Assembly: GCA_017450695.1 (NCBI GenBank) | Contig: JAFSTA010000161.1 | Location: 1-41,190, forward strand | Direction of reading: 5' to 3' | Source: Kiritimatiellia bacterium | GTDB taxonomy: Bacteria; Verrucomicrobiota; Kiritimatiellia; RFP12; UBA1067 | Length of the DNA: 41,190 nt | Part shown: positions 13,245 to 40,917 of the stretch, piece by piece | Layout: every line of letters begins with the position of its first letter | Numbering within the stretch: the stretch's first letter is position 1 | Made by a program: the position numbers and the translations under genes | The notes under the pieces: model-generated | The model's input: the letters and a program-made list of their open reading frames with translations, nothing else | Told to the model about the DNA's origin: nothing | Databases searched by the model: none

Positions 13245-13652
13245 CATTCGTTCCTTTCTCATTTTCCGGTCATGCCGACCCACAGCATACCAAACACGAA
13301 ACCACTCTAACAAAATCTCCCATGCCAAGCAAGGTCAAAGCGGTTCCGCCAAGAGTAACTTTTCGGCACCAGCTACGCGGGAATGAAAATGAGAGAAAGT
13401 TTGTTTTGCACAAAGAACACAGAAGGAAACAAGTCGCCCAATCGGGGAAGCGACAGTTGTCGCTTTTGCGTGGCAACAGAACAGAATGAAGCGGCAGGAG
13501 TGCCGCTTCCCCGAAAGCCGACGGCGAAGGCACCGCCGCTACGCAGCGGTCGCGACGGGGCGCGACCCTCCCCTTGCGGCTCTGCGTAAGGCAAAGGAAA
13601 ATTTTCCACACTTGCTCATTCCGTGAGTTTCATTGCACTCTGGTTTTCCGCA
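13245..13652. other. Intergenic region with a five-hairpin array
   Basis: No gene seen. Hairpins follow one another at 13448-13465 (AAGCGAC-AGTT-GTCGCTT), 13488-13509 (GAAGCGGCA-GGAG-TGCCGCTTC), 13522-13538 (CGGCG/CGCCG), 13536-13549 (CCGCT-ACGC-AGCGG, overlapping the previous one) and 13548-13567 (GGTCGCG-ACGGGG-CGCGACC). The last is hairpin element copy 3. Confidence 0.65.
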
Positions 13653-35231: not shown

Positions 35232-35316
35232 TTGAAATTACCTCACCGACCAGAGGCGCATCCGTACATGCATCCCTGAACCGACGAGGTTTCACCGTCA
35301 GCCGCGAACACGGGAG

Positions 35317-35410
35317 GGGCGCGCCCCGTCGCGACCGGTTGCGTAGCGACGGCGCCCTCGCCGTCGGGCGACAGGCGGGCTCGGGCGACAGGCGGGCTCG
35401 GGCGACAGGC
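35317..35410 (-). repeat. Hairpin element copy 8, related hairpin and 17-bp tandem repeat
   Basis: Copy 8 is GGGCGCG-CCCCGT-CGCGACC with one arm mismatch, preceded by GGGAG. GACGGCG-CCCT-CGCCGTC follows, then the 17-bp tandem units. Confidence 0.65.
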
Positions 35411-35496: not shown

Positions 35497-35525
35497 TTGC
35501 CGTAAGGATGTGATTTTGGTAGAAT
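35497..35525 (+). promoter_or_regulatory. Promoter-like element before Rhs fragment 1
   Basis: TTGCCG (35497-35502), 17 nt, TAGAAT (35520-35525). The DNA from 35515 to 35552 recurs at 40156-40193 with the same spacing of -35 and -10 elements. Confidence 0.5.
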
Positions 35526-36975
35526 GAATCGCGTGATGACGAGAACCAGACACAGACAGACTAACGCCGCGTTCACGGTCGCGAGGGACTGCGACGGACT
35601 GGGGCGGGAGGTGTACTCACTCGTCACCAACCGCGTGGAACGGGAACGCCTCGGCTACCTCCCGACACTGACGGGGTACGACATCCTGGGGCGCGTCGCC
35701 ACGAAGTCCGACCGTCCCGGAAACTGGACGCGTACAGGGGACTCCCCGGACGGGAACGTGGCGACAACCACCTACCCGAACGGATCAACCCGCGTCGTCT
35801 CGAACATCTGGGGGCGGGCGGTCTCCGTCACCGGCACCGCCGTCACGCCGGAGTTCTACACAGTAACCACAAACGGTCTCCGCTGGACGCGCACCATGTA
35901 CCGCGACATCCCGGGGCGGATTGTCAGGGAAGACCGCAGCGGCTGCAACGGATCCACACTTACGGACAACAAAGAATACGACAGATTTGGAAGGCTTCTG
36001 AGAGAAAGAAAGGCTGGCAAACCGATACTGGAAATCACATATAATCAGTACGGCTTACGTAACTCCTATGTTGAGCATGTCGGAAACGAGTGGTGGTCAA
36101 CGAATATCGAAAAACATAAACAGATTTACGAATCTTACGCGGGTATGGGTATGGATTTGACTTACGAATCATCAGGGTGTAACTTGGATGATGTACGAAA
36201 GCAAACACATGAAGGTTTGCGTGAAATGGCAACTGCAATTATGAACGAAAGGATTGAGTACATTGAAAAGCTAAATGCCGGTTTTGATGCTGAAACGAAT
36301 CACGGGGGGGCGCGCAAGGTGTGTACTTGCCGGATTTGTAATCGAGAGGAAAGTCCAATGTTGCGGTTACTGTTTCAATTCTTTCTGTTCCCGGTCTTTC
36401 TCCAAGCGGGGGACATCCCCGTAACGGGGGAACAAGATGTTGACACCGACCTTGAAGTGTTGGCCTCTTCGACTTCGGCTTGCCTGACATCGAACACGGT
36501 CACGATAAACTGGACGCTTACGAACAAGACTGAGCGTGCGGTAGCAGTCCCAGTGCGATTTTGTTCGAAAAGCTTGTTGGTTTTAGACCCAAAAAGCGGG
36601 AGTGCCCATTTCGGCCATCTTTTCGGCGGAGGATTGATGAGACGCAGGCACGGTTGTCAGGGTCCGATGTTTGATAGACAATTCGAGTCCGGTGTGGAGG
36701 TTGTTCCCGCGCACGGGGAAAGGGCTTTTTCGTTTTCCCGACAGGTTGATTTCCCGACGGGTGTTTTGGAAGGCGGGGCGAAAATCTTTTTCAGCATTAT
36801 GTTTGACCCTGAAAAAGAATACGTGAAGTGTCCCGAGGCTATGCAGAAACTGGAGAACTTATATCAGGATGTCCTGTTTAAAAAACTGGACATTGAGTTT
36901 TATGTAGATTGTTTTCCAGATTGTTCGCACAAGGAATCCCTACGGTATTCCGGAAAGGAACAGAATGAAGGGTGA
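35524..36975 (+). CDS. Rhs/YD-repeat core fragment with toxin-like tip, reading in frame into the next gene
   Basis: 483 codons in one open frame, but composite. Residues 1-165 are Rhs core: YD-type repeats GYDILGRVATKSD, YPNGSTRVVSNIWGRAV, YRDIPGRIVREDRSG and EYDRFGRLLRERKAG. Residues about 165-260 are a variable tip, helical and charged (IEKHKQIYESYAGMGMDLTYE; LREMATAIMNERIEYIEKLNAGF), of unrecognised fold. GC falls from about 67% to 40% in sampled 60-nt lines at the core-tip border near 35955. A G7 run at 36304-36310 follows. With one more G the tip would end at TAA 36339-36341, directly before the ribosome binding site of the next gene; as written it reads on through that gene. There is no signal peptide and no complete core, so this is probably an orphan tip module and not a full Rhs protein. 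Start uncertain (ATG 35524 or 35536). Confidence 0.65.
   Translation: MNRVMTRTRHRQTNAAFTVARDCDGLGREVYSLVTNRVERERLGYLPTLTGYDILGRVATKSDRPGNWTRTGDSPDGNVATTTYPNGSTRVVSNIWGRAVSVTGTAVTPEFYTVTTNGLRWTRTMYRDIPGRIVREDRSGCNGSTLTDNKEYDRFGRLLRERKAGKPILEITYNQYGLRNSYVEHVGNEWWSTNIEKHKQIYESYAGMGMDLTYESSGCNLDDVRKQTHEGLREMATAIMNERIEYIEKLNAGFDAETNHGGARKVCTCRICNREESPMLRLLFQFFLFPVFLQAGDIPVTGEQDVDTDLEVLASSTSACLTSNTVTINWTLTNKTERAVAVPVRFCSKSLLVLDPKSGSAHFGHLFGGGLMRRRHGCQGPMFDRQFESGVEVVPAHGERAFSFSRQVDFPTGVLEGGAKIFFSIMFDPEKEYVKCPEAMQKLENLYQDVLFKKLDIEFYVDCFPDCSHKESLRYSGKEQNEG
36358..36975 (+). CDS. Secreted protein of unknown function, probable immunity partner of the tip
   Basis: 205 residues starting at an ATG with GAGAGGA about 7 nt upstream, inside the longer composite frame. 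The N-terminus MLRLLFQFFLFPVFLQAGD is a signal peptide, so the product acts in the periplasm. The body looks like a beta-sandwich (TVTINWTLTNKTERAVAVPVRF; HGERAFSFSRQVDFPTGVLEGGAKIFFSIMF). No family recognised. Its position directly after an Rhs tip is where immunity genes sit; the function is inferred from this alone. It overlaps the next gene by 11 nt. Confidence 0.6.
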   Translation: MLRLLFQFFLFPVFLQAGDIPVTGEQDVDTDLEVLASSTSACLTSNTVTINWTLTNKTERAVAVPVRFCSKSLLVLDPKSGSAHFGHLFGGGLMRRRHGCQGPMFDRQFESGVEVVPAHGERAFSFSRQVDFPTGVLEGGAKIFFSIMFDPEKEYVKCPEAMQKLENLYQDVLFKKLDIEFYVDCFPDCSHKESLRYSGKEQNEG

Positions 36976-37462
36976 ACTTCTGAATTTCTTCGATGCATTC
37001 GGTATGATGCCGGCGGGAAACTACCCTGATTGGGGAGGGGGACCCGCATGGTCGCCATATCTTGAAATTCCGACGAAAGGGAATTGCTGGCGCTATGCCT
37101 GCAATGACCCTGCGGTGAACGGGGAACAGGCAAGGGTAAATCCTCCGGAGACGCCCCCGAACATAGACTGTAAATCGATTATGAGAGGCGTTACAGATAT
37201 AAGCGGTGCGCAAACCGGTGAAAAAGAAAAGCCGTGCCCAAAATGCCATTATAAAGTGTTGTTGGTGACCAGACCACATTATGATTACCACTGGTACAGA
37301 CAGGACGATGATGGTCGATGGAGCCATAAGCGTGGCGATATGTCGGTTATTACCTGGGTTGATGATCCGGAAAAGAATGCGAAAAATTACCATTACGACA
37401 CTCGATGCGGATACTTGTGCTTTCCGGACACAGGTCTCGATGCGGATAAAACAAAGAAATAG
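36965..37462 (+). CDS. Small Cys/His protein with NCWRYA and DYHWYR motifs, possible papain/NlpC-like enzyme
   Basis: 165 residues, AAGGA 5 nt before the ATG, no signal peptide. GNCWRYACND near residue 39 and HYDYHWYRQDDDGRWSHKRGD near 104 recall a widespread family of small proteins whose conserved Cys and His could form a catalytic dyad as in NlpC/papain folds; this is from memory and unverified. Additional cysteines occur in CPKCHY and CGYLCF. It may be a toxin tip cut off from its Rhs core, or an accessory effector. Overlaps the previous gene and is followed 14 nt later by a secreted small protein. Confidence 0.6.
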   Translation: MKGELLNFFDAFGMMPAGNYPDWGGGPAWSPYLEIPTKGNCWRYACNDPAVNGEQARVNPPETPPNIDCKSIMRGVTDISGAQTGEKEKPCPKCHYKVLLVTRPHYDYHWYRQDDDGRWSHKRGDMSVITWVDDPEKNAKNYHYDTRCGYLCFPDTGLDADKTKK

Positions 37463-37476
37463 GACTGGAGGTGCTC

Positions 37477-37896
37477 GTGAAATCCTTCCGTTTGTTTTTT
37501 TTGAGTTGTTTCATGATGCTTGGCAGTTTGATTCCGGGTATTCCCCGTAGATTAAACGTCTCTGACTACTTTTTTCAGGGAAAGGGGAATTGGGTTTATT
37601 ACTTCAGTGTCTATGATAGCTACGAACGAAAAACTATTTTTATCCTTGTCCCTCATTTAAACAGGGTGCTGTTTCTTGAAGATGACCTTGATAAATACTA
37701 CCGCTTTCCTACCTTTGAGGATGCGAAACGATTTGTGGAAGATTATATCCCTGATCTCACCTTGCTACCGTATCCTGAAACAGTGAAATCAAAATCTCCT
37801 CGCTATCAACAAATTGTCTGCCCTTGCAATTCGAATAATATGGTGGACCACATTTCATGGAAGAAATGGATTAAGCATGAACTTTTTACGGAGTAA
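37477..37896 (+). CDS. Small secreted protein, probable immunity protein of the Cys/His protein
   Basis: 139 residues from a GTG start with GGAG 6 nt upstream (another GTG at 37471 is too close to it). The N-terminus KSFRLFFLSCFMMLGSLIPG is a signal peptide. The rest is mixed alpha/beta and aromatic-rich (NWVYYFSVYDSYERKTIFILV; FEDAKRFVEDYIPDLTLLPY). No family recognised. AT-richer than the surrounding chromosome, like the two genes before it. Confidence 0.6.
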   Translation: MKSFRLFFLSCFMMLGSLIPGIPRRLNVSDYFFQGKGNWVYYFSVYDSYERKTIFILVPHLNRVLFLEDDLDKYYRFPTFEDAKRFVEDYIPDLTLLPYPETVKSKSPRYQQIVCPCNSNNMVDHISWKKWIKHELFTE

Positions 37897-38917
37897 AATA
37901 TTGATTTCGATGGGTTCACAAGCTGTTTTTCGTTGTGATTACCGCGATTCGGGCGGCGTCCTGATCGCCGAACGCGCCTACGCGTACGCCTACGACGCCG
38001 TCGGCAACCGCGTCTCCGCGACGGAGACCACGAACAACTGGGCGTACACCGCGAACGCCCTCAACCAATACACGTCGATCATCGGGAACAACGACGGGAC
38101 GTTCATCCCCGAATACGACGAGGACGGACATCAAACGAGCGCAAAGCCCGAGACCCGGCCGACGGGCGACCGCGATTTTATCGCCGTCCAGCAGGGACGG
38201 AGCGGGGAGCGGCATCCCGCGACGCGGCGGAAACTGCACCAGCACCAGACGCTAGTGAAGACGGAGACCTGCGTGTGGCGCGTCGCCGACTACCGTATCG
38301 GCTGGTCTTCCGAATACTTTGATCGTGAATTGCGATGCCATTATTATAACTATCGACACCTTATACAAGGGGTAGCCAGATGGTCGGCTCTGGCCCCGGA
38401 AGACGAAGAGACGGGATACAGGTTTCTTGAAAACAATGCACAGAACAATGTCGATGAGCTTGGGCTGAAACAGGTTGGCCCTCCAATAGTATGCGGCGGC
38501 TGTTTGATCTGCATCGACAATGATTCCCCGAGCGGGGACGGGAACGGTTACAAGATTCACTGGAACTGCCGTAAACGCAAGTGGGCGACGACTTGCAGGG
38601 GTGGGGGTACTGCCCATTGGCCGTCCGGGCGGGGATCGCACGGGGCAGGCGGGGAGATTCCACCTAAAAATAAAAAGTGCCTTGATGGCACACGGTGGGA
38701 AATCCATCCTGAAAAAGTCAAGGAGGAAAGAACCCCGTGCTGCGAGGAGAATGAATACCGTGTTCTCAAGCCTGCGGTGGCGGGCGCGGGAGGGTGCGTA
38801 CTCGGTTACGTCATCTACAAGACAATAAAGGTGTGCGGTGGGGGGACGGCCGGCTTTTTTATTGCGGGGCCAGCGGGGGCGGCCGCAGGGATTTCGATAT
38901 GTGTCGCGACGCCATGA
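37877..38917 (+). CDS. Degenerate Rhs core fragment 2 with Cys-rich, glycine-zipper C-terminal tip
   Basis: One open frame of 346 codons; the start is uncertain (ATG 37877 or 37910, neither with a ribosome binding site). After about 20 residues it enters Rhs core (AYAYAYDAVGNRVSATETTN; YTANALNQYTSIIGNNDGTF). A stretch without normal core features follows (about 38150-38300), then the canonical core end in altered form: SSEYFDRELRCHYYNYRHL, RFLENNAQNNVDELGLK, which normally marks the tip boundary. The tip (about 140 residues) has more than ten Cys and ends in two Gly/Ala-rich hydrophobic segments (AVAGAGGCVLGYVIYKTI; AGFFIAGPAGAAAGI), a glycine-zipper pattern seen in membrane-acting peptides. 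The stop overlaps the WG-repeat gene by 4 nt. Confidence 0.65.
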   Translation: MNFLRSKILISMGSQAVFRCDYRDSGGVLIAERAYAYAYDAVGNRVSATETTNNWAYTANALNQYTSIIGNNDGTFIPEYDEDGHQTSAKPETRPTGDRDFIAVQQGRSGERHPATRRKLHQHQTLVKTETCVWRVADYRIGWSSEYFDRELRCHYYNYRHLIQGVARWSALAPEDEETGYRFLENNAQNNVDELGLKQVGPPIVCGGCLICIDNDSPSGDGNGYKIHWNCRKRKWATTCRGGGTAHWPSGRGSHGAGGEIPPKNKKCLDGTRWEIHPEKVKEERTPCCEENEYRVLKPAVAGAGGCVLGYVIYKTIKVCGGGTAGFFIAGPAGAAAGISICVATP

Positions 38918-39897
38918 CCGAAATGCGAAGAGGGGAAATACTGCTTCCGTGGCGGGAGACTGGGAGCGGCAGATGGGGATATGCCTCCCGCTTGGCGCGG
39001 GAATGGGCCATCCCACCCCGCTATGAAGGAGCTTCCTTCTTTTCAGATGGAATGGCTGCCGTCAGGCTGGAAGGCCTTCGCGGGTACATCACGGGCGCTG
39101 GCATTTTTGCCATCCGCCCGCAGTTCCGTGATGCGGAAGATTTTGATTCGGGGTATGCGGTTGTCCACGACGGTGCCGAGTATGGTGTGATAGACCGTTC
39201 AGGGAAAGCCGTCCTGCCGTTTTCTTTCGATTTTATTTTTCAGGATTACGGTTATCCGTTCCCCGCGTTCGCCACGCATGAGGATGGGGGGAAATGGGGG
39301 GTCAGGAACCTTGCAGGGGAGACGCTGGTCCCTTTCCTGTTTGATGACCTCAATGGATTTGACGAATACGGCTGGGCGCTTGCCCGGCTGGACGGCAGGA
39401 ATGTATTCATCGACCGGGCGGGAAAGACGGTTCCGGGGTTTGAATCCTGCGGGAATATCAGGATGCCGTTTTCCGACGGGCTCGCCGTCGTGGAGAGGGA
39501 CGGCAGGGAGGGGTGCGTAGATAGGTCCGGCAGAATCGTCCTCCCGGCCGTTTATGATGAGGTCTCCGCCTTTTCGGAAGAACTCATTCCGGTCAGGGAT
39601 GGCGCTGAATGGTTCTATATCGATGAAGACGGACGGCGTCCGTTCCGGACTGTCTTCGACAATGCGGTCCCGTTTGAAAACGGTTTTGCGTTTGTGGAAA
39701 AGGGCGGCGCGTGGGGAGTGATCGACCATAAAGGCGCGTATGCGCTAAAGCCCGACATCTCGGATTTCGGCCCGTCGTGTTCTGGATTTGTCAGGCTTTT
39801 CCGCGGAGACGAGATATCGTATTTCGATACGGTGCAGGGCAATGAGATATTTTTGAGAGGGCTGACAAAGGAATCTTCGTGTAGAATATCCGATTGA
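38914..39897 (+). CDS. WG-repeat protein, probable immunity protein for the glycine-zipper tip
   Basis: 327 residues without a signal peptide. Built from WG-type repeats of about 30-50 residues (GRWGYASRLAREWAIPPRYE; EYGVIDRSGKAVLPFSFD; KWGVRNLAGETLVPFLFD; GREGCVDRSGRIVLPAVYD; AWGVIDHKGAYALKPDI). Such repeats form beta structures, and WG proteins are found next to Rhs and other polymorphic toxins. The start overlaps the stop of the Rhs fragment (ATGA), so expression is coupled. The immunity role is inferred from position. Confidence 0.8.
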   Translation: MTEMRRGEILLPWRETGSGRWGYASRLAREWAIPPRYEGASFFSDGMAAVRLEGLRGYITGAGIFAIRPQFRDAEDFDSGYAVVHDGAEYGVIDRSGKAVLPFSFDFIFQDYGYPFPAFATHEDGGKWGVRNLAGETLVPFLFDDLNGFDEYGWALARLDGRNVFIDRAGKTVPGFESCGNIRMPFSDGLAVVERDGREGCVDRSGRIVLPAVYDEVSAFSEELIPVRDGAEWFYIDEDGRRPFRTVFDNAVPFENGFAFVEKGGAWGVIDHKGAYALKPDISDFGPSCSGFVRLFRGDEISYFDTVQGNEIFLRGLTKESSCRISD

Positions 39898-39922
39898 GGC
39901 GGGTATCGAGGATGTGAACGGG

Positions 39923-40141
39923 ATGATCGCCAGGATAAATCCGTTTCTCGCATGCATTGCGGCTGTCTGCATTTTGATAGGCTTTTGTTTCTCGCCTTTG
40001 AAGAACACGGACCGGGCGGAGAAGCCGCCTCCTCCGCCCGTGCCCGCCCCTGCCGCCCTTCGCGCCCTCGCTGCGACCAATACCGACGAACGCCTCTCCG
40101 CCGCGCTACCGCAGTCATCGCAGTCATCGCAAACGGATTGA
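39923..40141 (+). CDS. Short secreted-protein leader with proline-rich linker, truncated
   Basis: 72 residues: MIARINPFLACIAAVCILIG is a signal or anchor helix, then a linker (KPPPPPVPAPAALRALAAT) and a Ser/Gln tail, then TGA. It looks like the N-terminus of an exported protein, perhaps an Rhs protein, cut off early. A GTG at 39914 is an alternative start; GAGGA lies 10 nt before the ATG. Confidence 0.45.
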   Translation: MIARINPFLACIAAVCILIGFCFSPLKNTDRAEKPPPPPVPAPAALRALAATNTDERLSAALPQSSQSSQTD

Positions 40142-40166
40142 ATGGAGACGGACGGTTTGGTAGAAT
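40138..40166 (+). promoter_or_regulatory. Promoter-like element, second copy
   Basis: TTGAAT (40138-40143), 17 nt, TAGAAT (40161-40166). The following DNA matches 35520-35552. It would drive the short frame at 40165-40260 and the gene at 40318. Confidence 0.5.
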
Positions 40167-40193
40167 GAACCGCGAGATGACGAGAACGGGACA
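40156..40193 (+). repeat. 38-bp direct repeat, shared with 35515-35552
   Basis: Both copies read TTTGGTAGAATGAA, a variable base, CGCG, a variable base, GATGACGAGAAC, two variable bases, GACA: 34 of 38 positions identical. They bracket about 4.6 kb of the Rhs locus. Confidence 0.8.
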
Positions 40194-40260
40194 GACCAGG
40201 ATACCGAAGACGCACCGCGACGGTGATACCTACGGCGCGGTCGCCGCCCCTTGTTCCTAA
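40165..40260 (+). other. Short open frame (31 codons) after the second repeat copy
   Basis: Begins like Rhs fragment 1 (MNREMTRT against MNRVMTRT) and stops at TAA 40258-40260. Probably a remnant of an Rhs 5' end left by recombination. Confidence 0.35.
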
Positions 40261-40317
40261 GCCTCTGAGAGCGGGAAGGAACAGCGGAAAGTAATCATAA
40301 TCCCCAGGGGTGAGACC

Positions 40318-40917
40318 ATGAGAGAATTTCCATCCTACATCGAGATGTCCGATTCGTTAAGAACTTGGATTGGCGAAACATTTGAGCTTTGCGAGCCTTT
40401 GGGCGTTCGTCTGCGCGGCATTGTCGATTGGAATGTGCCGCGTGTCGGGTGTTTTGCGGAATATGTCGATTCTTCGCAACCGATTCATGCGGGGAGCGGG
40501 GCGTACAGGGAGGAGGGAAAACTTTACGGGTATGTACTCCGACGCCTGCGCGAATTGCGGTCGCCCGTCTTATGTTACGGGTGGGAAATACGCGAGAGCG
40601 ACGAATGGATTTCCAGTTGCGGAAGGTCCGATACAAGGTTTTTCTTTGTGTATGTAAATAGCCATGTCTTTCTTCTGCCCAGCGCACTTCAGAACGAAGA
40701 ATGCGTAGATGCCGCATTCCGTTATGCGAGCGCCCCTGTGCATGAGCTTGCGCTTGTGACAAGTGGACTGGGAGATTTTTTCCATCCGGATATGTCTCTT
40801 TCCGCCCCGGATGTGGATCTGCTCGTCAGCCGAACTGTGGAACTCATCATCGGCTGCTATGACGGCGAATCCTGGTTTGTCTTGCCGACGAGGAATCATT
40901 ATCCGGAGCCGATTTGA
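40318..40917 (+). CDS. Cytoplasmic protein of unknown function, orphan immunity-like
   Basis: 199 residues, no signal peptide or membrane segment. AGGGGTGAG lies just upstream of the ATG. Alpha/beta composition with conserved-looking blocks PLGVRLRGIVDWNVPRVGCF, FFFVYVNSHVFLLPSALQ and LSAPDVDLLVSRTVELIIGC. No family recognised. It follows Rhs remnants with no intact toxin beside it, as retained immunity genes often do in such loci. Confidence 0.6.
   Translation: MREFPSYIEMSDSLRTWIGETFELCEPLGVRLRGIVDWNVPRVGCFAEYVDSSQPIHAGSGAYREEGKLYGYVLRRLRELRSPVLCYGWEIRESDEWISSCGRSDTRFFFVYVNSHVFLLPSALQNEECVDAAFRYASAPVHELALVTSGLGDFFHPDMSLSAPDVDLLVSRTVELIIGCYDGESWFVLPTRNHYPEPI

Follow-up and report, generated by a model that had tools for sequence, protein, structure and literature searches.

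The window analyzed here, a stretch of 41,190 nucleotides from a Kiritimatiellia bacterium (contig JAFSTA010000161.1 of assembly GCA_017450695.1; GTDB lineage Verrucomicrobiota, Kiritimatiellia, RFP12, UBA1067), is contig C59 of a 5.0-Mb genome that is 97.7% complete and consists of 287 contigs. Between positions 35524 and 40917 it carries pieces of Rhs core, C-terminal tips that are candidate toxins and small genes that are candidate immunity partners, arranged as four modules at 35524-36975, 36965-37896, 37910-39897 and 39914-40917 (Table 1). The sequence-only reading of this DNA had described a mosaic Rhs locus, with an AT-rich toxin/immunity block lodged between two consecutive halves of one GC-rich core. 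The open reading frames on which it was built are borne out by our listing of reading frames, and we agree that the locus is a mosaic of several toxin/immunity-like modules, with families absent from Pfam, NCBIfam and PHROGs. The window proteins were compared with these three databases and, for sequence matches, with the PDB, where the locus proteins queried had no significant match; relatives of the tips and partners were sought in 144 genomes, and a core-end query covered 57 genomes of the family.

Table 1. Features of the Rhs locus, in window coordinates.
Module	Feature	Coordinates	Strand	Basis or remark
1	Head repeat, a short conserved stretch that precedes truncated Rhs pieces	35515..35552	+	Also at 40156-40193
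1	Fragment 1, middle piece of Rhs core with YD repeats	35524..36090	+	GC-rich to ~35955, AT-rich beyond
1	Putative tip 1, ~90 residues	36091..36357	+	Same open frame as fragment 1
1	Exported small protein, candidate immunity partner of tip 1	36358..36975	+	Own ATG, hydrophobic N-terminus
2	Severed Rhs tip 2, conserved Cys and His motifs (NNCYxYA ... DYHWYRxDDDGxWSxKxG)	36965..37462	+	Homologues are Rhs tips
2	Exported small protein, candidate immunity partner of tip 2	37477..37896	+	GTG start behind GGAGG
3	Fragment 2, Rhs core end with internal deletion	37910..38473	+	Mapping to long Rhs, identity to C231, TIGR03696
3	In-frame copy (114 bp) of a dispersed 108-bp element, within the core of fragment 2	38128..38248	+	Genome copies, empty sites
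3	Tip 3, Cys-rich, hydrophobic C-terminus	38474..38917	+	Rhs tips in G060, G062
3	WG-repeat protein, candidate immunity of tip 3	38914..39897	+	Pfam WG_beta_rep, 2.9e-40
4	HEAT-repeat gene remnant, middle deleted	39914..40141	+	Last ~28 codons match HEAT genes in C87, C24, C13, C190
4	Rhs head remnant	40145..40260	+	72-82% identical to heads in C13, C87, C24, C190
4	Orphan immunity-like gene, 199 amino acids, no signal sequence	40318..40917	+	Position only

The two core fragments were mapped on a long Rhs open reading frame of 1684 amino acids from G060, a genome of the same family. The first part of this long Rhs is probably out of frame; behind it come a WG, a HEAT and a CcdA/DsbD-like gene before the next Rhs gene begins. 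Fragment 1 aligned to residues 632-826 (35% identity, BLASTP E-value 5e-26) and fragment 2 to residues 1277-1350 and 1482-1647 (E-value 9e-29), which identifies a YD-repeat core and an RHS-associated core end; fragment 2 also matched the family TIGR03696 Rhs_assc_core (E-value 6e-7, score 29.9, slightly below the curated cut-off of 32.5). Rhs/YD sequence thus stands on both flanks, as had been proposed. The fragments are nevertheless not consecutive parts of one core and do not join end to end on this full-length relative: the 450 residues that separate them on the long Rhs are absent from the window, and another 131 residues have been deleted inside fragment 2. Pieces of fragment 2 have paralogues in their own genome that are 71-82% identical (71% across 76 amino acids in contig C231), and in fragment 1 only the head has any.

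The break in composition was confirmed, its edges lying at 35960 and 37950 in a two-breakpoint fit. GC content is 65.3% at 35524-35955, 45.4% at 35956-37905 and 59.6% at 37935-38473, against a mean of 59.3% (standard deviation 2.2, minimum 52.2%) in 1950-bp windows over positions 1-35000; GC content at third codon positions is 0.83 for fragment 1, drops to 0.43-0.55 across the AT-rich block and is 0.71 in fragment 2. The block is compositionally foreign, more mildly so than the earlier figures of 40% inside and 67% before it, which slightly exaggerated the contrast. Core homology of fragment 1 extends through its residue 189, at about 36090 and some 130 bp into the AT-rich block, and the GC break therefore falls inside the core and not at the border of core and tip. 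GC-rich and AT-rich sequence are indeed joined here, with the junction within the core; the mapping would fit two Rhs genes, one GC-rich and one AT-rich, having exchanged sequence there.

The best-supported toxin/partner pair of the locus is the putative one of module 3, where a degenerate core end (...ARWSALAPEDEETGYRFLENNAQNNVDELGL) is joined to the Cys-rich tip 3 and the ATG of the WG gene overlaps the TGA of the tip (ATGA). Tip 3 with an adjacent WG gene recurs in G060 and G062, which belong to another genus of the family (loci L041 and L042). The tip is 37-42% identical to the Rhs tips of these genomes; the G060 and G062 tips are 71% identical to each other and their WG proteins 54%, and the window's copies are further removed from those of either genome. 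The G062 tip is carried on a partial core of 673 amino acids behind another Rhs gene, an orphan-like arrangement. WG repeats are common, so a WG match says little by itself, and the case for pairing is the shared position. A conserved tip/partner pair was found for tip 3/WG in three genomes, and the other pairs are proposed from position and exported N-termini. A profile search of viral contigs with tip 3 returned no relative. In L041 (1356-3424) and L042 (6876-9266), HEAT-repeat and CcdA/DsbD-like genes precede the next Rhs gene; taken together with Cys-rich tips, this arrangement suggests linked thiol handling.

Module 2 holds what had been taken for a separate Cys/His protein. The gene is present, and its homologues identify it as itself an Rhs tip. 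On viral contig L069, the tip 2 domain follows directly behind an Rhs core end (...SRWLTVDLWWPEE...YFDTNGSRP...NNCYSYACD...DYHWYRQDDDGYWSNKPG), and two tips of G274 with this domain are likewise placed directly behind Rhs core ends; we therefore read the window's gene, which begins MKGELLNFFDAFGMMP and overlaps the preceding gene by 11 bp, as opening at the remnant of a core/tip boundary (NFFDAFG). Homologues behind Rhs core ends in L069, L074 and L076 are each followed by an exported or membrane-anchored partner, and the small protein behind tip 2 in the window has a signal-like hydrophobic N-terminus, as have the tip 2 neighbours in these three loci. The exported partners suggest that a tip 2 toxin would act in the periplasm. 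Across three distant members, Cys41, His109 and some 26 further positions do not vary, and tip 2 is a likely candidate for a papain-like or similar Cys/His enzyme; a structure model of tip 2, made together with one homologue, had a predicted local distance difference test score (pLDDT) of 36 and was unusable, and no fold search was made from it. The domain also ends a Rhizobium plasmid protein without Rhs. In G249 (L072, 676-1956), a secreted-looking protein without Rhs repeats has the Cys/His domain of tip 2 as its C-terminal end, and in L069 (3632-4516; IMGVR_UViG_3300001918_000026, classed as viral) a core end, the Cys/His tip and a lipoprotein-like partner at the contig end lie beside a DNA adenine methylase-like gene.

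Module 1 opens with a head repeat, the two window copies of which are 89% identical; a longer repeat of head and HEAT end has 10 matches in the genome and stands in contigs C13, C87, C24 and C190. A ribosome-site-like GAGAGGAA lies just 5′ of the ATG of the tip 1 partner. Tip 1 matched no family in Pfam, NCBIfam or PHROGs and has no relative in the 144 genomes. Module 4 consists of remnants and one orphan gene. A HEAT gene stands before the next Rhs gene in relatives, and because of this order module 4 looks like a cassette that has lost its Rhs and tip. Its last gene is immunity-like by position alone; a model of the protein alone was as unusable as that of tip 2 (pLDDT 36, no fold search made from it).

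We interpret 35524-40917 as a decayed array of four orphan Rhs C-terminal toxin (Rhs-CT)/immunity modules and not as one core split by an insert, a reading to which we give a probability of about 0.8. On this reading, each module would go back to an Rhs gene of which only the 3′ end is left, comprising the tip and more or less of the core, and a partner gene comes next; the differences in core length would stem from acquisitions and deletions, one after another, at conserved stretches of core and head. The modules are probably a silent store, in which immunity proteins would be made and from which homologous recombination in the core could transfer modules to a complete Rhs carrier.

Orphan rhs-CT/immunity modules are a known kind; the tips are unfamiliar. 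In enterobacteria, orphan rhs-CT/rhsI pairs inhibit growth, and an orphan toxin becomes active when it recombines with the main rhs gene (PMC3967940); for several pairs, both toxicity and its neutralisation have been demonstrated (PMC3150448). The window resembles the orphan rhs-CT/rhsI pairs of Salmonella, Dickeya and other enterobacteria (PMC3967940; PMC3150448) in having core fragments, tips and small partners in a row, core remnants of varying length and core identity usable for recombination. It differs in its phylum, in that no main rhs gene was seen, in the exported-looking partners of two modules, in tips without a database family and in a 108-bp element inside a core. CdiA-CT/CdiI orphan modules (PMC3150448) are similar as displaced C-terminal toxin/immunity pairs in tandem, whereas the carrier here is a YD-repeat Rhs protein and not CdiA. 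None of the papers searched names Kiritimatiellota together with Rhs. The array would extend the idea of orphan toxin/immunity modules from enterobacteria to a poorly studied lineage, presumably of rumen type, and it supplies unfamiliar candidates in the Cys/His tip, seen on Rhs cores, on a viral contig and on a Rhizobium plasmid without Rhs, and in the Cys-rich tip with its WG-repeat protein.

Several observations weigh against a functional array of orphan modules. Truncated cores with variable tips were found as in the enterobacterial orphans, but not their position 3′ of a main rhs gene: what lies 5′ of 35524 is a TonB-receptor-like gene in the opposite orientation. No complete Rhs carrier was seen in the contigs of this genome, so that the store may have nothing to load onto, and no Rhs N-terminal region, and hence no carrier with an N-terminal export region, was found in what is an incomplete assembly; the assembly is broken at repeats into its 287 contigs, and a complete carrier may be missed. 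Tip 1 has no stop codon before the next gene, its frame reading into an exported-looking protein of 205 amino acids, and this, like the loss of some 130 core residues from fragment 2, fits decay no less than storage. The partner of tip 1 has no database match and no homologue in the 144 genomes, and the last protein of module 4 has none in these genomes or the PDB.

A rival reading is a graveyard of Rhs gene ends, without present function and simply not yet deleted, to which the internal deletions, the missing stop of tip 1, the HEAT and head remnants and the absence of a full-length carrier all point. We consider such a graveyard unlikely, if a serious contender: tip 2, tip 3 and every partner gene have open frames, which come with ribosome-site-like sequences or overlapping starts, and two genomes from a different genus of the family have kept the tip 3/WG pair. 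The insertion of an AT-rich toxin/immunity block into a single GC-rich Rhs core, with one half on either side, is very improbable. It would explain the sharp GC change at both edges and the presence of Rhs core on both flanks in the same orientation and order, but the supposed halves lie 450 residues apart on the long Rhs, core homology continues inside the block, and close paralogues exist for one half and, beyond its head, not for the other; the two fragments are the remains of separate modules. An assembly chimera, in which AT-rich sequence of another organism was joined into a contig of this metagenome-assembled genome, could be suspected from the 287 contigs and the tandem repeat at the end of this one, but can be largely set aside, since core homology crosses the 35955 break in a single reading frame and comparable rows of modules occur in other contigs of the genome and in a single-contig genome.

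These other rows belong to a wider distribution of Rhs modules. The core-end query matched 41 of the 57 family genomes, often several times per contig, and 16 places in the genome of the window, where the Rhs frames among the matches listed are all shorter than 450 amino acids and further module rows lie in contigs C13 and C166. Rows of severed module ends are a common type of locus in the family. A cleaner form is seen in G274, whose genome belongs to the same phylum and is a single contig: here, at least 24 modules of core end and tip follow one another in one direction over 42 kb (C1, 482000-524000, comprising loci L083, L078, L079 and L084), with five more at 584-595 kb; many are followed by a small exported or membrane-anchored protein. 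The array in the window may itself continue past the contig end. The flanking TonB-receptor gene was not found in the three congeneric genomes compared. At L012 (3667-4497), an Rhs core end is followed by a tip with HTHPEPNSFSASDRQW, reminiscent of JAB-like or DUF4329 domains.

The core of fragment 2 contains a short dispersed element that is 108 bp long elsewhere; the copy here measures 114 bp, and a duplication of 6 bp seems to account for the difference. Four intact copies and one truncated copy occur in the genome, all in Rhs cores, the intact ones at three different sites. Comparison of filled with empty sites gave a difference of 114 bp for the window against C231 and of 108 bp for C13 against C87; at the third site, C166, C17 and G001 carry 108 bp that the empty copies in G001:C72 and C90 lack. 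Each of the three sites has GG on one side and AA(C/T)-like sequence on the other, at a Gly-Asn or Val-Asp-Asn stretch, and the element is read in two forward frames, both open. A pattern search allowing at most 3 mismatches gave only two further hits, both with 3 mismatches, and only three of the named genome contigs match the pattern. Among relatives, good matches occur in G001, a congeneric genome, and G007, in Rhs genes, and in G019, at a contig end and outside an Rhs frame, an exception to confinement in Rhs genes. With three independent sites, all would be in frame by chance about 1 time in 27, so that chance could account for the in-frame insertion, and the confinement to Rhs is that of five copies.

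It is conceivable, if doubtful, that this is a mobile 108-bp element living in the Rhs genes of this Kiritimatiellae family, inserted in frame between the GG and AAC-like sequence of YDxxGN repeats as 36 codons open in at least two frames and perhaps providing extra identity for module recombination. Small repeats in frame within protein-coding genes are known from the Rickettsia palindromic elements (PMC10969869, review), with which the element, read here in two different frames, shares its dispersal and its in-frame tolerance in coding genes. Here, in contrast, the intact copies number only four, all in Rhs genes, and no strong palindrome was found: the single-strand fold is no better than that of shuffled sequence (z-score -0.03). 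An integron attC-like hairpin was dropped as a candidate on the same result. Spread by phage was also rejected, as the viral contigs have no exact match to the element pattern. If the proposal is true, an in-frame element confined to Rhs would add a new case of proteins that tolerate selfish DNA within them.

Two other repeats were noted in the window. A tandem repeat with units of about 59 bp occupies the contig end (41022-41190) and 31568-31751, with copies that are 83-94% similar elsewhere in the window. A GC-rich dispersed repeat, GTTGCGTAGCGACGGCGCCCTCGCCGTCGGG, lies at 35311-35368 and recurs near 13518, 14537, 22842 and 31538, as well as in contigs C13 and C17.

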